Below are positions 13,849-35,572 of a stretch of DNA of 64,000 bases, piece after piece. Positions within the stretch are counted from its first letter, which is position 1. Every line of letters starts with the position of its first letter. Origin of the DNA: Candidatus Acididesulfobacter guangdongensis (GTDB taxonomy: Bacteria; SZUA-79; Acidulodesulfobacterales; Acidulodesulfobacteraceae); contig SGBC01000004.1 of the NCBI GenBank assembly GCA_004195045.1, positions 62,001 to 126,000 of the forward strand, given 5' to 3'. The position numbers were made by a program, and so were the translations under genes. The notes under the pieces are model-generated. The model had not been told where the DNA came from, did no database searches, and was given only the letters and a program-made list of their open reading frames with translations.

Positions 13849-14898
13849 ATGGATAGTTATGCCGATAATAAAAAAAATGAATTTTATATTCAGTGGCATT
13901 TTATGGACAGCTGTAATCTAAGATGTATTCATTGCTATCAGAATGATTATCTATTTAAAGAGCCCGACTTAAATAACTTAAATATTATTTTTCGCAAACT
14001 TGATGATGCTTTGGCAAAATGGAAAATGAACGGTTTTGTTTCATTGACGGGAGGAGAACCGTTCCTGAGTCCTTCATCTTTATTTTATGTGGCTGAATTA
14101 ATAGAAAATTCGCCAAATTTTCAAAATGTTGCCATATTATCAAACGGTACGTTAATAGGCGAAAATATTATTAAAGAAATTAAAAGGTTTAAAAAAATTA
14201 CGGAGATTCAAATATCTATAGACGGACCTAATGCTCAAATACATGAATCCATAAGAGGAAAGGGTACGTTTTTGAAAACGGTTGAAACTGTTAAAAAATT
14301 AGTCGGTGCAGGATTAAAAACTTCTATCATGTTTACGGTGCATAAAAAAAATATGGATTATGCCGAGGATATGCTGTATTTAGCTAAAGAGCTTAAAGTA
14401 AATGCCTTAACTGTTGAAAGAATGACAACAATGAATGAAGAAGAAAAAAAAGAATTTTTTATAAATCCTTATGATTTAGAAAGAATTTATAAAAACATAT
14501 ATGAAAAATCTAAAGTAATATTTGCAGAATCTGCGACAAGACTTATAACTTCCAGACCGTTATGGAATCTGGTAGATGAAAATGCAGGCGGATTTTGCCC
14601 GGTAGGGCTTTCTTCGGTCTGCATTCTGCATGACGGTACCGTGCTTCCCTGCAGAAGGCTATATTTGCCGCTGGGAAATATTATTGAAGAAGGTCTCTTT
14701 AAAATATGGTATGGTTCAAAAATTTTATGGGATATGAGAAATAAGAAAAATATTTCGGATAATAGCGGCGCTCATACGCAATCTGCATGTTCGGATATTA
14801 ATTGTTCCCATTTTAAAAGATGCGGAGGATGCAAGGCGATAAGCTATTATTATCATGGAAATATACACGAAAAAGATCCTCAATGCTGGCTCAGCTGA
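13849..14898 (+). CDS. Radical SAM/SPASM peptide-modifying enzyme
   Basis: 349 residues. The radical SAM cluster ligands are Cys22, Cys26 and Cys29 in SCNLRCIHC, and GGEP follows at about residue 67. The C-terminal SPASM region has Cys250, 258, 268, 314, 319, 325, 328 and 346, enough for two auxiliary [4Fe-4S] clusters. Such enzymes make thioether, C-C or other crosslinks in ribosomal peptides. The next genes encode a PqqD-like peptide-binding protein and a tiny Cys-containing peptide, supporting a RiPP maturase. No precise subfamily could be assigned. No strong Shine-Dalgarno precedes the ATG. Confidence 0.85.
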   Translation: MDSYADNKKNEFYIQWHFMDSCNLRCIHCYQNDYLFKEPDLNNLNIIFRKLDDALAKWKMNGFVSLTGGEPFLSPSSLFYVAELIENSPNFQNVAILSNGTLIGENIIKEIKRFKKITEIQISIDGPNAQIHESIRGKGTFLKTVETVKKLVGAGLKTSIMFTVHKKNMDYAEDMLYLAKELKVNALTVERMTTMNEEEKKEFFINPYDLERIYKNIYEKSKVIFAESATRLITSRPLWNLVDENAGGFCPVGLSSVCILHDGTVLPCRRLYLPLGNIIEEGLFKIWYGSKILWDMRNKKNISDNSGAHTQSACSDINCSHFKRCGGCKAISYYYHGNIHEKDPQCWLS

Positions 14899-15011
14899 TT
14901 TTATAAAACAATACAGTTAATGAGTACATTAATGCCGGTTTAACTGATTTTATAAAAAAATACGGTTATACGGTTAGTCGGTACAATTAATTAAGGGATG
15001 GTTCGCTGATT

Positions 15012-15290
15012 ATGAATGTTAAATATAAACTTTTACCTCAATATATTCTGCATAATGACGGAACGGACAAGTATATGCTATTTGATACGCAGACAGGCGG
15101 CATATACAAATTAAATGCCGTATCATTTAATATTTTGTCCCTTTGCAGCGGTGAATACACAAGCGATGAAATAAAAGATGAGATCTTAAAAATGTTTGAT
15201 GTTGACTTAGATGTTTTAACTGAAGATTTTAATGATATTATTACAAAATTTCTAAATGAAAATATAATTTCTTGCCCAACTTCACCATGA
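15012..15290 (+). CDS. PqqD-like (RRE) peptide chaperone
   Basis: 92 residues. YMLFDTQTGGIYKLNAVSFNIL followed by LCSGEYTSDEIKDEIL is the PqqD fold pattern: three beta-strands and a helical bundle that bind precursor leader peptides and present them to the radical SAM enzyme. It lies 113 bp downstream of the SPASM enzyme and 229 bp upstream of the precursor gene. The tail reads CPTSP before a TGA stop. The bases coding for this tail form one arm of a perfect inverted repeat (see 15274-15425). Confidence 0.8.
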   Translation: MNVKYKLLPQYILHNDGTDKYMLFDTQTGGIYKLNAVSFNILSLCSGEYTSDEIKDEILKMFDVDLDVLTEDFNDIITKFLNENIISCPTSP

Positions 15291-15425
15291 TTATCAGCAG
15301 CATATTGTACTATAATTTATGGGGCAATAAAAATGCCTGTGAAGACTACAAAATAAAAAATAAAATGTAATAATATTAATGTGTTGTAATATAATTTTAG
15401 AATAACAAAAGTGGTGAAGTTGGGC
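15274..15425. repeat. 14-bp perfect inverted repeat flanking the pqqD-precursor spacer
   Basis: GCCCAACTTCACCA at 15274-15287 is matched by TGGTGAAGTTGGGC at 15412-15425. The intervening 124 bp are AT-rich. The arms could form a large hairpin in the transcript or be the ends of a small inserted element. Confidence 0.85.
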
Positions 15426-15469
15426 TAAAACTCCTAAAAAAATGTTTTTTTGGGATTAATGAATTTTTT

Positions 15470-15475
15470 TATAAT
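15470..15475 (+). promoter_or_regulatory. Possible -10 element for the precursor gene
   Basis: A perfect TATAAT stands 44 bp before the precursor ATG, but the -35 position (TTTTTG, about 15447) is poor. A T/A hairpin at 15432-15455 lies just before it and could attenuate read-through from pqqD. Confidence 0.35.
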
Positions 15476-15519
15476 TTTTCTTAAAATAACGTCAGTTAAA
15501 ATTAAGGAGGTGAAAAAAC

Positions 15520-15639
15520 ATGAAAACCAATTACGAAAAGCCGATTTTGGAAAATCTGGATGCCGAAGAATTTTATTCAACTTTGATGGAAAACTATGGA
15601 ATTAACGATTCGTGCTATTCTTGAAAATCCTGCAAGTGA
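15520..15639 (+). CDS. Candidate selenocysteine-containing RiPP precursor peptide
   Basis: A perfect AAGGAGG at 15504-15510 lies 9 nt before the ATG. The frame runs 34 codons to UGA at 15622-15624, and if that UGA is selenocysteine, 39 residues to UGA at 15637-15639. The leader carries YEKPILENL (residues 5-13), similar to the YxxPxL box that RRE proteins bind, and an acidic middle. The end reads NDSCYS, or NDSCYSUKSCK with Sec: Cys32-x2-Sec35-x2-Cys38. A perfect hairpin at 15641-15657 follows at SECIS-like spacing. The radical SAM and PqqD-like genes lie upstream and a terminator downstream. That this is a precursor is well supported; Sec decoding is inference. Confidence 0.7.
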
Positions 15640-15657
15640 AATGTGCAGTTGGCACAT
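15622..15657 (+). promoter_or_regulatory. UGA codon with SECIS-like hairpin
   Basis: UGA at 15622-15624 is followed by a perfect stem ATGTGC (15641-15646) / GCACAT (15652-15657) with loop AGTTG. The loop begins 22 nt after the UGA and has G as its second base, fitting the bacterial SECIS rule (apical loop 16-37 nt downstream, G among its first two bases). A competing CTGCA/TGCAG stem (15630-15648) is possible. Confidence 0.5.
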
Positions 15658-15663
15658 AAGAAT

Positions 15664-15728
15664 TAAGCGCCTTATTCTTGAAATATTAAAAAAATATAAA
15701 AAGAAAAAGGCGCTTATTTTATTTATTT
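15664..15728 (+). terminator. Rho-independent terminator of the precursor gene
   Basis: TAAGCGCCTTATTCTT (15664-15679) pairs with AAGAAAAAGGCGCTTA (15701-15716), 15 of 16 positions, followed by a T-rich run. Confidence 0.85.
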
Positions 15729-15835
15729 TTTTTAATTTTCATTGATTATACTGTATTGATTTGAAATATTGCGTAATTATTGCAGCAATAGTTTAGTTGA
15801 AGTTTTATGCATATTAAAATATAAAATACTTATAT

Positions 15836-15885
15836 TATCTTATCTTATCTTATCTTATCTTATCTTATCTTATCTTATCTTATCT
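15836..15885. repeat. Pentanucleotide tandem repeat (TATCT)10
   Basis: Ten uninterrupted copies of TATCT end one base before the gatD stop codon (gene on the minus strand). A simple repeat of this kind is prone to slippage. Confidence 0.97.
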
Positions 15886-25213: not shown

Positions 25214-26656
25214 ATGGATAGCTTAAACAAATATTTAAGAAAATTTCCGAAAATTCAATTAATTTTGCAGGATGAAGGTGTCAAAAAATTAATAGACAAA
25301 TATTCTTATAATGCCGTAAAAGATAAATTAGAAGAAATATTGTCAGAAGAAAAAGAGAAAATAAAAATAAAAATAAATTTTAAAGATGATGCAGTACTTG
25401 AAGACAATATTTTTAAAATAGAGCGCTTCGCATTTTTGCTGAATGATTATTTTAATAACTTTTCATTCAGTCTTAAAAGGGTTATTAACGGAACGGGCGT
25501 AGTTGTTCATACCAATCTTGGCAGGTCTATCTTGCCGAAAGCGGCAGTTGAAAATGTGTTTAAAATATCTTCTTCATATTCAAATCTTGAATTCAATCTT
25601 GAAGAAGGAATGAGGGGTAAAAGATATTCCCATGTGGAAACATTGCTTAACAGAATTTTAAACTGTGAAGCGGCTATTGTAGTTAATAATAATGCTGCTG
25701 CCGTGTTTATGGCGTTAAATACTTTTGCCGCAGGAATCAAAAAAGAAGTTATAGTTTCGAGAGGCGAGCTTGTTGAAATAGGCGGTTCGTTTAGAATTCC
25801 GGATATAATGAAAGCGTCAGGAGCGCAGCTTATCGAAGTCGGAACTACAAATAAAACTAAAATTAATGATTACGAATCAGAAATAAACGAAAATACGGCG
25901 CTGCTGCTTAAAGTTCATCACAGCAATTTTAAAATGACGGGATTTGTTCACGAGGTAAATTCTAAAGAGCTTGTAGAAACAGGAGAAAAATACAATATTC
26001 CTGTTATGGAAGATCTCGGTTCAGGAAGTTTTATCAAATTTGAAAAATTCGGTCTTCCAAAAGAGCCTACCGCTCAGGAAGTTATTAACGCAGGGATTGA
26101 TATAGTAACATTCAGCGGAGACAAACTTCTTGGCGGACCGCAGGCAGGTATTATTGCAGGCAAAAAAGAGTATGTTGATTTAATTGCAAAAAACCCGTTA
26201 AACAGGGCTTTCAGGATTGACAAAATGACTCTGGCGGCGCTTGAAGCAGTCTTGTTTGAATATTTAGATATAAATAACGCTATCAAGAACATTCCGACCC
26301 TCCGCCTGCTTTCACAAAATATTTTAGAAATAAAAAAAAGAGGGTTAAAACTTTTAAATAAGGTTAAAAAGCTTGAAAGCACCTATAAAATCATGTATAC
26401 TTTTAACATTATAGAAGATTTCAGTATTGTAGGAGGCGGAGCAATGCCTGATTACGAAATGAAAACATATTGCCTGTCCGTTACTCATAAATTTTTTGCG
26501 GCGGAAAAATTAAGCGAAATATTCAGAGGTTTACAAATACCTGTTGTCGGTAAAATCAAAGACGGTAAATTCCTGATCGATTTAAGGACTGTTTTAGATG
26601 ACGATATAAACGATATAATCGGAAATTTCATAAAAGTTTCTCAGATGTCAAATTAA
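25214..26656 (+). CDS. selA: L-seryl-tRNA(Sec) selenium transferase
   Basis: 480 residues, the normal bacterial SelA length. RVINGTGVVVHTNLGRSILP is the family signature and Lys304 in TFSGDKLLGGPQAG is the PLP lysine. SelA converts seryl-tRNA(Sec) to selenocysteyl-tRNA(Sec) using selenophosphate from SelD, which is encoded about 4.3 kb downstream. The presence of both genes means the cell can read UGA as selenocysteine. selB and the tRNA(Sec) gene selC were not found in this window. Confidence 0.96.
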   Translation: MDSLNKYLRKFPKIQLILQDEGVKKLIDKYSYNAVKDKLEEILSEEKEKIKIKINFKDDAVLEDNIFKIERFAFLLNDYFNNFSFSLKRVINGTGVVVHTNLGRSILPKAAVENVFKISSSYSNLEFNLEEGMRGKRYSHVETLLNRILNCEAAIVVNNNAAAVFMALNTFAAGIKKEVIVSRGELVEIGGSFRIPDIMKASGAQLIEVGTTNKTKINDYESEINENTALLLKVHHSNFKMTGFVHEVNSKELVETGEKYNIPVMEDLGSGSFIKFEKFGLPKEPTAQEVINAGIDIVTFSGDKLLGGPQAGIIAGKKEYVDLIAKNPLNRAFRIDKMTLAALEAVLFEYLDINNAIKNIPTLRLLSQNILEIKKRGLKLLNKVKKLESTYKIMYTFNIIEDFSIVGGGAMPDYEMKTYCLSVTHKFFAAEKLSEIFRGLQIPVVGKIKDGKFLIDLRTVLDDDINDIIGNFIKVSQMSN

Positions 26657-30924: not shown

Positions 30925-32001
30925 ATGACAAACAAAAAATATAAATTAACCTCTATGACATCTGCTCACGGCTGAGGGTGCAAATTAGGTCCGGAGGACC
31001 TATCTTCAATAATTGATAAATTGCCTGTTCTGCCTAATGACAATGTTCTTGTAGGTTTTGATTACAAAGACGATGCCGGTATATACAAAATATCGGATGA
31101 CAGGTGTCTTATTCAGACCGTAGATTTTTTTACGCCTGTAGTGGATGAGCCTTACGCTTTTGGACAAATAGCCGCGGCTAATGCTTTATCTGATGTTTAC
31201 GCTATGGGAGGACAGCCTATAACTGTTTTAAACATTGCATGCTTTCCTATAGCAAATGTCGAAAAAGATGTTTTTAGAGAAATATTGCTTGGAGGATTAG
31301 ATAAAATAAATGAATCCGGCGCAGCGCTCCTCGGCGGACATTCTATTGACGATAAAGAGCTGAAATATGGTCTTAGCGTTACAGGTATGTGCGGAATAGA
31401 TGAGATATATTCCAATAAAGGGGCTGAGTCCGGCGATATTTTATATCTTTCCAAAAAATTAGGAACGGGGTTTATAGTCAGCGCGTTATGCACCGATTTG
31501 TTAAAACAGTCTGTTTTAGATGAAGCTGTTTGTTCTATGACTAAATTAAATAAAACAGCATCAGAATTGGTTATTTCTTTAAAAAAGGCGGTGCATGCCA
31601 TGACCGATATTACAGGATTCGGTCTTGTAGGGCATACGTCTGAAATGATGATAGCCGGCGGTGTTTCTTGCGAATTAAATCTTGAAAACCTTCCTTTAAT
31701 CAGCGGAAGTTTAGAATTAATACAGAAAGGAATTAATCCCGCAGGCACCAAACGGAATAGAAAATTCTTTTCTCAATATGTAAATATTGAAGAAAATGTT
31801 GATGAAAATCTTGTCTGGGCTGCTTTTGGCGCTGAAACATCGGGCGGACTTTTAATCTGCGTATCCAGCGAACAAGCTGCCGTTCTTGAAAATTTATTTA
31901 AAAATGCCGGAGAACCGCTATACAGGGTTGGAAAAATATTAAATAAAGTATTAGATATAAAAGATAAAGATAATGTAAATACTATTAATTTAGTCAGATA
32001 A
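30925..32001 (+). CDS. selD: Selenide, water dikinase (selenocysteine-containing SelD)
   Basis: 358 residues when the in-frame UGA at codon 17 (30973-30975) is read as selenocysteine. LTSMTSAHGUGCKLGPEDL is the SelD active-site loop, in which family members have Cys or Sec at this place. Gene callers would start at the TTG at 31021 and lose the active site. After the loop the ATP-binding core is standard: DNVLVGFDYKDDAG, ANALSDVYAMGGQP, MTDITGFGLVGH. It makes selenophosphate for SelA. A SECIS-type hairpin follows the UGA. It starts 5 bp after mlaD ends. Confidence 0.95.
30973..31002 (+). promoter_or_regulatory. selD UGA(Sec) and SECIS element
   Basis: UGA at 30973-30975. A perfect 7-bp stem TAGGTCC/GGACCTA (30986-30992, 30996-31002) carries loop GGA, which starts 17 nt after the UGA and begins with G, as a bacterial SECIS should. 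Confidence 0.85.
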
Positions 32002-34492: not shown

Positions 34493-35572
34493 TTATAGCA
34501 AATTAACTTTTAACTGCCCGCACCCGCCGTAAATACTTTGAGCCTTAGAATGTCTTATCGTTACTATAAATCCGGCTTTCATCAGTTTATCCTGAAAATT
34601 ATTATAGGCAGTTTCGCTTGTTCTTTCGTAATTATTTTTTGTCGGCGTGCCGCAGGAAGTTTTTGCGAGGTCTGTATTTTCAATATCAAATTTATTAAAC
34701 GGAATTAGATTAAATTTGACATTTTGCGGAAAAAATAATTTTATCAGTTCTTTTGCATTATTTATTGAATCATTAAAATCTTTTAATAAAACATATTCTA
34801 AGGTTATTTTATTGTGCCCGAAGTATTTCCCGCTGCTTATAAACTTTGCAATGTCTTCTATGGGATATTTTTTATTAATAGGCATAATCTGGCTTCTTGA
34901 ATAATTATTTGAAGCGTTTAGAGATATGGCAATTTTATATTTTAAATCTTTAATCTCGATTAGTTTATCTATTATGCCGCATGTTGAAATTGTAATCTTT
35001 CTTCGCGCTACCCCTATAAAGTTAGGATCTGAAATAATTTCAAGAGCTTTTTTTACTTCAGACAGATTATCTAAAGGTTCGCCCATACCCATAAATACTA
35101 TATTAGTAATTTTAGTTTTGCATTCGTTTTCTATCAGTAAAATTTGAGAGATTATCTCTCCTGAAGTTAAATTTCTTTGAAAACCGGAGTTGCCGGTGCT
35201 GCAAAAATCGCATAGCATTTTACATCCTGCCTGAGATGAAACGCATAATGTTTTTCTTTTGCCGTAATCAATGAATACTGATTCGATGGCAGAACCGTCG
35301 TTAAGTTTTATAAGATATTTTATTGAATAATTGCCGTCGGCTGCGTCTTCTCTAAAATTAGCTGTAATCTCCGGCATTGTAAAATTAAAATGATAGTCGA
35401 GGCTCGCTCTCAGAGTTTTTGAAATGTTTGTCATATTATTAAAATCATAGACTTTAGCACTGTAAATCCATTTCATAATTTGGAACGCATTAAATTTTTT
35501 TGCAGAATTTTTTATGCAAAAAGCTTCTAATTCTTCTAATGAAAGGCAAAAAATAGAATTTTTATTAGTCAT
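34493..35572 (-). CDS. rlmN: 23S rRNA (adenine2503-C2)-methyltransferase RlmN
   Basis: 359 residues. Radical SAM motif Cys117-x3-Cys121-x2-Cys124 in SSQAGCKMLCDFCSTG; FMGMGEPLDN and the C-terminal GGCGQL cysteine (the methyl-transferring pair with the Cys in the SAM region) are all present. It methylates C2 of A2503 in 23S rRNA and of A37 in some tRNAs. On the minus strand upstream of the ASKHA gene. Confidence 0.95.
   Translation of the reverse strand: MTNKNSIFCLSLEELEAFCIKNSAKKFNAFQIMKWIYSAKVYDFNNMTNISKTLRASLDYHFNFTMPEITANFREDAADGNYSIKYLIKLNDGSAIESVFIDYGKRKTLCVSSQAGCKMLCDFCSTGNSGFQRNLTSGEIISQILLIENECKTKITNIVFMGMGEPLDNLSEVKKALEIISDPNFIGVARRKITISTCGIIDKLIEIKDLKYKIAISLNASNNYSRSQIMPINKKYPIEDIAKFISSGKYFGHNKITLEYVLLKDFNDSINNAKELIKLFFPQNVKFNLIPFNKFDIENTDLAKTSCGTPTKNNYERTSETAYNNFQDKLMKAGFIVTIRHSKAQSIYGGCGQLKVNLL

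Follow-up and report, generated by a model that had tools for sequence, protein, structure and literature searches.

A candidate selenocysteine-containing RiPP precursor encoded beside a SPASM radical SAM enzyme and a PqqD-like protein in Candidatus Acididesulfobacter guangdongensis

The cassette and its relatives

We analysed a 64,000-nucleotide stretch of the genome of Candidatus Acididesulfobacter guangdongensis (hereafter the window), in which three genes form a cassette at positions 13849-15639 of the + strand. An earlier note on this DNA had described a SPASM radical SAM enzyme, a PqqD-like protein and a short gene with an AAGGAGG motif and a terminator; each was present where it had been placed, and all features of the cassette were confirmed at their coordinates. 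The first gene (13849..14898) encodes a radical SAM/SPASM enzyme of 349 aa, the presumed maturase, which scored over the Pfam cut-offs for PF04055 (80.7 bits) and the SPASM domain PF13186 (33.2 bits). It carries the cluster motif C22-x3-C26-x2-C29 and seven SPASM cysteines (C250, C268, C314, C319, C325, C328 and C346), and these 3+7 cluster cysteines are conserved in 26/26 homologues. Judged by its residues, the enzyme has all the cysteines needed to hold a radical SAM cluster plus two auxiliary clusters. Every member of the phylum has an additional cysteine, C258, between C250 and C268; in distant relatives this residue is Thr or Ala. The closest solved structures are SkfB (7e-14) and 5wgg, a 'radical SAM domain protein' (1.5e-8) named CteB in PMC10470005, and in the AlphaFold model of the enzyme the SPASM half has a pLDDT of ~30.

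The second gene (15012..15290, + strand) encodes a PqqD-like peptide chaperone (RRE) of 92 aa, matching PF05402 with 39.1 bits against a cut-off of 23.4. A PqqD-like gene accompanies the radical SAM gene in 21 locus groups, and none was detected beside it in genomes G010 and G019. The short third gene (15520..15639, + strand), preceded by the Shine-Dalgarno sequence AAGGAGG (15504..15510), reads MKTNYEKPILENLDAEEFYSTLMENYGINDSCYS-UGA-KSCK-stop, with the in-frame UGA at 15622..15624 (codon 35) and a second UGA, taken as the stop, at 15637-15639. With the first UGA read as selenocysteine (Sec), the product would be a 39-aa peptide, MKTNYEKPILENLDAEEFYSTLMENYGINDSCYSUKSCK. Directly past the coding end, the hairpin AUGUGC-AGUUG-GCACAU (15641..15657) is followed by an intrinsic terminator, AAGCGCC...GGCGCTT with a U-rich tract (15665..15728), both on the + strand. 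Ten head-to-tail copies of TTATC (15835-15884) lie directly past the cassette.

Within the uncultured phylum to which the window belongs, 27/30 genomes contain homologous precursors, nearly all of which have GGAG or GGGG upstream, and the gene order radical SAM-PqqD-precursor is kept in most genomes. The precursor matched none of the named families at E<=1. Among the neighbouring genes are biotin genes, pal, queF, murI and metH, which we take to be house-keeping; no conserved exporter, protease or immunity gene accompanies the cassette across genomes, and a PADLOC scan returned viperin matches only, attributed to the common radical SAM core. For the comparisons below we aligned 33 alignable precursor copies, excluding a degenerate copy in G019 (in-frame stop, hairpin lost), a genome that carries an intact Sec copy on another contig. 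Invariant positions in the precursors are Y5, P8, A15-F18, C32, C38 and, as either C or U, position 35. Weak DsrE-like proteins, one of them with a signal-peptide-like start, adjoin Cys-form precursors at four loci (L051, L054, L096 and L100; clusters c18, c20 and c52), which may point to a connection with the trafficking of sulfur or selenium.

Decoding of the in-frame UGA

The core C-x-x-UGA-x-x-C-K is found in 23 aligned copies, and the remaining 10 carry TGT or TGC at the UGA position, with no other codon among them. Cysteine at position 35 had been predicted for homologues by the earlier note; TAA and TAG, the replacements that it had named as counting against Sec, stand at 0 aligned positions. 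The C-terminus still aligns in the Cys copies (CYSCKSCK, CYSCKGCK, CRTCRACF), and some genomes hold both Sec and Cys precursor copies (G011, G023 and G010). As had also been anticipated, K-(S/E)-C-K continues past the UGA in every Sec copy: K and C are invariant, with changes between AAA and AAG and between TGC and TGT, and have S or E between them. Among distinct triplets, the post-UGA differences number 18/18/63 at codon positions 1/2/3 and are thus mostly third-position; on this alignment, the codons 3' of the UGA are conserved as protein.

The hairpin behind the gene varies in relatives (GCGC-AGUUU-GCGC, GCGC-AGGUU-GCGC, GCGU-AGGUU-ACGC), and its AG(G/U)U loop lies 18-25 nt 3' of the UGA across copies (22 nt in the window). 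In an alignment of 15 distinct hairpin sequences, 93% of cells were paired and 4/6 pairs had changed on both sides, with a covariation of 0.406 against 0.186 after shuffling (0/500), and slid controls did not exceed 0.130. It fits the bSECIS model as reviewed in PMC13188914, even though 2/23 hairpins just miss the published limit of -7.5 kcal/mol (G004 at -7.1, G018 at -7.2). To gauge chance occurrence, all 2029 TGA triplets on both strands of the window were scanned for a hairpin (stem >=5 bp, loop AG(G/U)U) 16-25 nt downstream. Only two qualified, the precursor UGA and a TGA at 35162 that lies in no long open frame, a rarity which argues that the precursor hairpin is more than a chance feature. 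Folding downstream of the codon is weaker on average in Cys than in Sec copies (mean z -0.97 vs -2.24). In G011, an intact hairpin is retained behind one Cys copy, and in Cys copies of G005, G017 and G011 the hairpin is altered (GCGCGGUCGACGC or GCGCGGUCGGCGC). These intact and altered remnants suggest a past replacement of Sec by Cys. At locus L054 (7618-7780), a Cys-form precursor (SCHTCRACF) is followed by an intact SECIS-like hairpin, likely a relic of a former Sec codon.

The genome itself encodes selA, selB, tRNA-Sec (selC) and selD. The selA and Sec-type selD genes attributed to the window by the earlier note were both recovered over cut-offs on the + strand: selA, L-seryl-tRNA(Sec) selenium transferase, at 25214..26656 (TIGR00474, 575 bits, cut-off 267.9), and selD at 30925..32001 (TIGR00476, 321 bits, cut-off 125) in its Sec-containing form, whose UGA codon 17 (30973-30975) sits in the frame SAHGUGCK, followed by a hairpin. 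The proposed link of the cassette to genomes with selA and selB also held, as almost every genome of the phylum has selA, selB and tRNA-Sec (29, 28 and 26, respectively, of 31 genomes searched, over curated cut-offs).

The proposal that this UGA encodes Sec within a CxxUxxC core is therefore supported by the exchange between UGA and Cys codons, the conserved C-terminus and the covarying hairpin. Almost certainly, SelA, SelB and SelD with tRNA-Sec insert Sec at the UGA at 15622, directed by the bSECIS, and the second UGA terminates, since the hairpin distance is right for the first UGA and not for the second. A second Sec at the latter codon was rejected, given its loop distance of 7 nt and the TAA or TAG found there in most relatives outside the genus, as was reassignment of UGA to another residue, because neighbouring genes end in TGA. 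A further reading takes the first UGA as an ordinary stop, as UGA is at the ends of the radical SAM and PqqD genes and elsewhere in the genome, and the peptide as 34 residues long with ...NDSCYS as its end. This is extremely improbable, given that 10 homologues have a Cys codon here, that K-x-C-K is conserved past it and that a covarying bSECIS lies at a fitting spacing.

The phylum also has an unrelated FmdB-type zinc-ribbon gene that ends GGFG-UGA-GT, with a SECIS-like AGGUU-loop hairpin behind the UGA, and is a candidate for another selenoprotein; it is found beside radical SAM copies at L053 (near 2033) and L057 (near 8916).

Maturation of the peptide by the radical SAM/PqqD pair

The N-terminal half of the peptide, MKxxYExPxxxExxAEEF, would serve as leader, with its YxxP motif held by the PqqD protein, and the SPASM enzyme would oxidise the C-terminal core D-S-C-Y-S-U-K-(S/E)-C-K. 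In lasso and LPP systems, RiPP recognition elements bind a leader motif of the form YxxPx[L/V/I/F/A] (PMC13381572), and we counted the match of the precursor's YxxP motif to such leaders in favour of a RiPP. We infer that the enzyme and the PqqD protein very probably mature the peptide in this manner.

When the Sec-form precursor was compared with the radical SAM gene across 30 genomes of the phylum, 21 had both, 2 the enzyme gene only, 2 the Sec precursor only and 5 neither (Fisher p=0.0027, in a test that ignores shared ancestry). The two enzyme-only genomes are G007, which has Cys precursors, and G024, in which the contig ends inside the enzyme gene. No orthologue of the enzyme was found in G009 (97% complete) and G016 (78% complete), where the Sec precursor is intact, nor in G005, G015 and G017, where Cys precursors are present. 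In G002, G006 and G016 the peptide has kept its ancestral position, preceded by decayed sequence from the N-terminal part of the enzyme, and such remnants lie directly upstream of intact Sec precursors at loci L105, L106, L101 and L102. Local linkage is thus not essential, and since an intact enzyme is encoded at another place in the genomes G002, G006, G010 and G014, the enzyme may act on the precursor in trans.

Enzyme relatives were found in 24/61 genomes, nearly all of the same family, and in a search of 386 genomes only G030 and G157 matched outside the phylum. The distant relatives (Roseburia, Spirochaetaceae, Actinomycetota and G030), ~35-44% identical to the enzyme, adjoin Cys-rich precursors of the type YEKP...CxxCxxC or similar, with C-terminal ends such as WCFGCTNCNCN, CRQCSGCHGCR and CRQCSSCHGCR. 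No Sec-form precursor was found outside the phylum among the 386 genomes; the G030 precursor is a Cys form, and there is no CxxCxxC peptide near the match in G157. NCBIfam and Pfam scans of these distant precursors gave no convincing family. Two cassettes from Roseburia and Spirochaetaceae MAGs (L035 and L036) have in common the radical SAM enzyme, PqqD, a precursor ending in WCFGCTNCNCN and an amidohydrolase-like gene, and at L061, L064 and L037 CRQCS(G/S)CH(G/A)CR precursors occur with asparagine-synthase-like and glycosyltransferase-like genes.

These patterns bear on whether the peptide could instead be an unmodified small selenoprotein, redox-active or binding a metal or selenium, with the radical SAM/PqqD pair joining it only now and then or having a different target. 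Such a role would suit the genomes that keep a precursor without an enzyme orthologue (G005, G009, G015, G016 and G017), the loss of the enzyme in place with the peptide kept intact, and the DsrE-like proteins beside several Cys-form copies. We nevertheless consider it unlikely, as it would leave aside the leader/core layout with its YxxP motif, the radical SAM-PqqD-precursor order in most genomes, the relocated intact enzyme copies in G002, G006, G010 and G014, and the recurrence in distant phyla of the pairing of enzyme and precursor. The best explanation overall, to which we assign a probability of roughly 0.8, is that the short gene encodes a Sec-containing RiPP precursor, decoded through its UGA and matured by the radical SAM/PqqD pair.

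Possible chemistry, known systems and significance

The earlier note had suggested a selenoether or a thioether/selenylsulfide crosslink as the possible modification. In the reaction that we envisage, an oxidative crosslink would join a chalcogen of the core, which has three (those of two Cys and one Sec), to a carbon close by, giving a selenoether or a thioether. SPASM enzymes with two auxiliary clusters make such crosslinks on Cys-containing cores, and for this reason a chalcogen-to-carbon crosslink appears to be the most likely chemistry, albeit at slightly under even odds. Among SPASM enzymes, PapB forms thioethers and also a selenoether on a SeCys-substituted peptide (PMC10470005), and SbtM removes four hydrogens from Cys and SeCys peptides, the Cys product being a thiooxazole (PMC11002830). 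A reaction of either the PapB or the SbtM type is conceivable, with the enzyme studied here belonging to neither named family.

The closest known counterparts are the selenobacteriocins, or thio(seleno)oxazole RiPPs, with precursor TIGR04081 and SbtM, TIGR04082 (Lewis et al. 2021, as cited in PMC11002830 and PMC13188914). Both systems combine a short ribosomal precursor, an in-frame UGA read as Sec through a downstream SECIS, and a SPASM radical SAM maturase. If the present enzyme likewise made a thio(seleno)oxazole, the system would be a remote member of the selenobacteriocin class. TIGR04082 is indeed among its best-scoring families (107.3 bits) and the best family for the Roseburia relative (150 bits), and SbtM accepts both Cys and Sec substrates (PMC11002830), but these scores are far under the 350-bit cut-off, and the match is limited to the C-terminal part of the 516-position profile, the present enzyme having 349 aa and a discrete PqqD instead. 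The precursor is not matched by TIGR04081 or any other family and has a CxxUxxC core with one Sec rather than an SGUG motif with two, so that membership of this class also seems improbable.

None of the NCBIfam named families examined (SbtM, ACGX, GeoRSP, SynChlorMet, PapB and AlbA) was reached at its cut-off by the enzyme. ACGX, GeoRSP and SynChlorMet share with our cassette a SPASM radical SAM enzyme, and the latter two also a PqqD-family protein, but the enzyme scored 120.3, 105.9 and 104 bits, respectively, against a cut-off of 400 in each case (TIGR04340, TIGR04303, TIGR04250), and the PqqD-like protein 25.6 and 29.4 bits against 100 for GeoRSP (TIGR04302) and SynChlorMet (TIGR04248). To our knowledge, no Sec occurs in these three families. 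The ranthipeptide and sactipeptide synthases PapB, CteB, SkfB and AlbA are likewise SPASM enzymes and make Cys-to-carbon thioethers; the present enzyme, however, scored 78.5 bits against 340 for the PapB model and 76 against 850 for AlbA, and its precursor lacks a CX3D motif and has a natural Sec.

As regards function, we favour, with some confidence, a house-keeping redox, metal-handling or cofactor-like peptide over an antibiotic, because the system is phylum-wide, its leader and core are strongly conserved, its neighbours are presumably house-keeping genes and neither an exporter or other transporter nor a protease is conserved with it; the last two of these points speak for an internal role. 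An antibacterial RiPP would have a precedent by analogy in the selenobacteriocins, the sole Sec RiPP class described in the literature searched and, in the consulted passages of the PMC13188914 catalogue, the only RiPP precursor (TIGR04081, SGUG). With exporter, protease and immunity gene absent from the cassette across genomes, and core and leader nearly fixed across the phylum, a bacteriocin is quite unlikely. We find it possible, though on balance doubtful, that the peptides form a phylum-wide CxxUxxC selenopeptide class in which the SPASM enzyme links selenium to carbon, yielding a selenoether redox or cofactor peptide.

The precursor resembles the prokaryotic selenoproteins catalogued in Table 1 of PMC13188914 (2026) in its UGA/Cys pair and bSECIS; a YxxP-leader CxxUxxC peptide is absent among the families in the consulted rows of that table. 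In the open-access literature, to which our search extended, one class of Sec-containing RiPP precursor is described (selenobacteriocins/SbtM), and we found no system of Sec peptide and radical SAM enzyme like the present one. The peptide would add a second and separate type of selenium peptide product encoded by a gene, differing in core, leader, maturase and the layout of its chaperone and present in almost all genomes of the phylum examined. As ordinary gene calling stops at the UGA, its product would be truncated in annotation. The natural Sec/Cys pairs, which occur even in one genome, offer a way into why selenium enters a radical-SAM-associated peptide, and bear on whether biology makes selenoethers.
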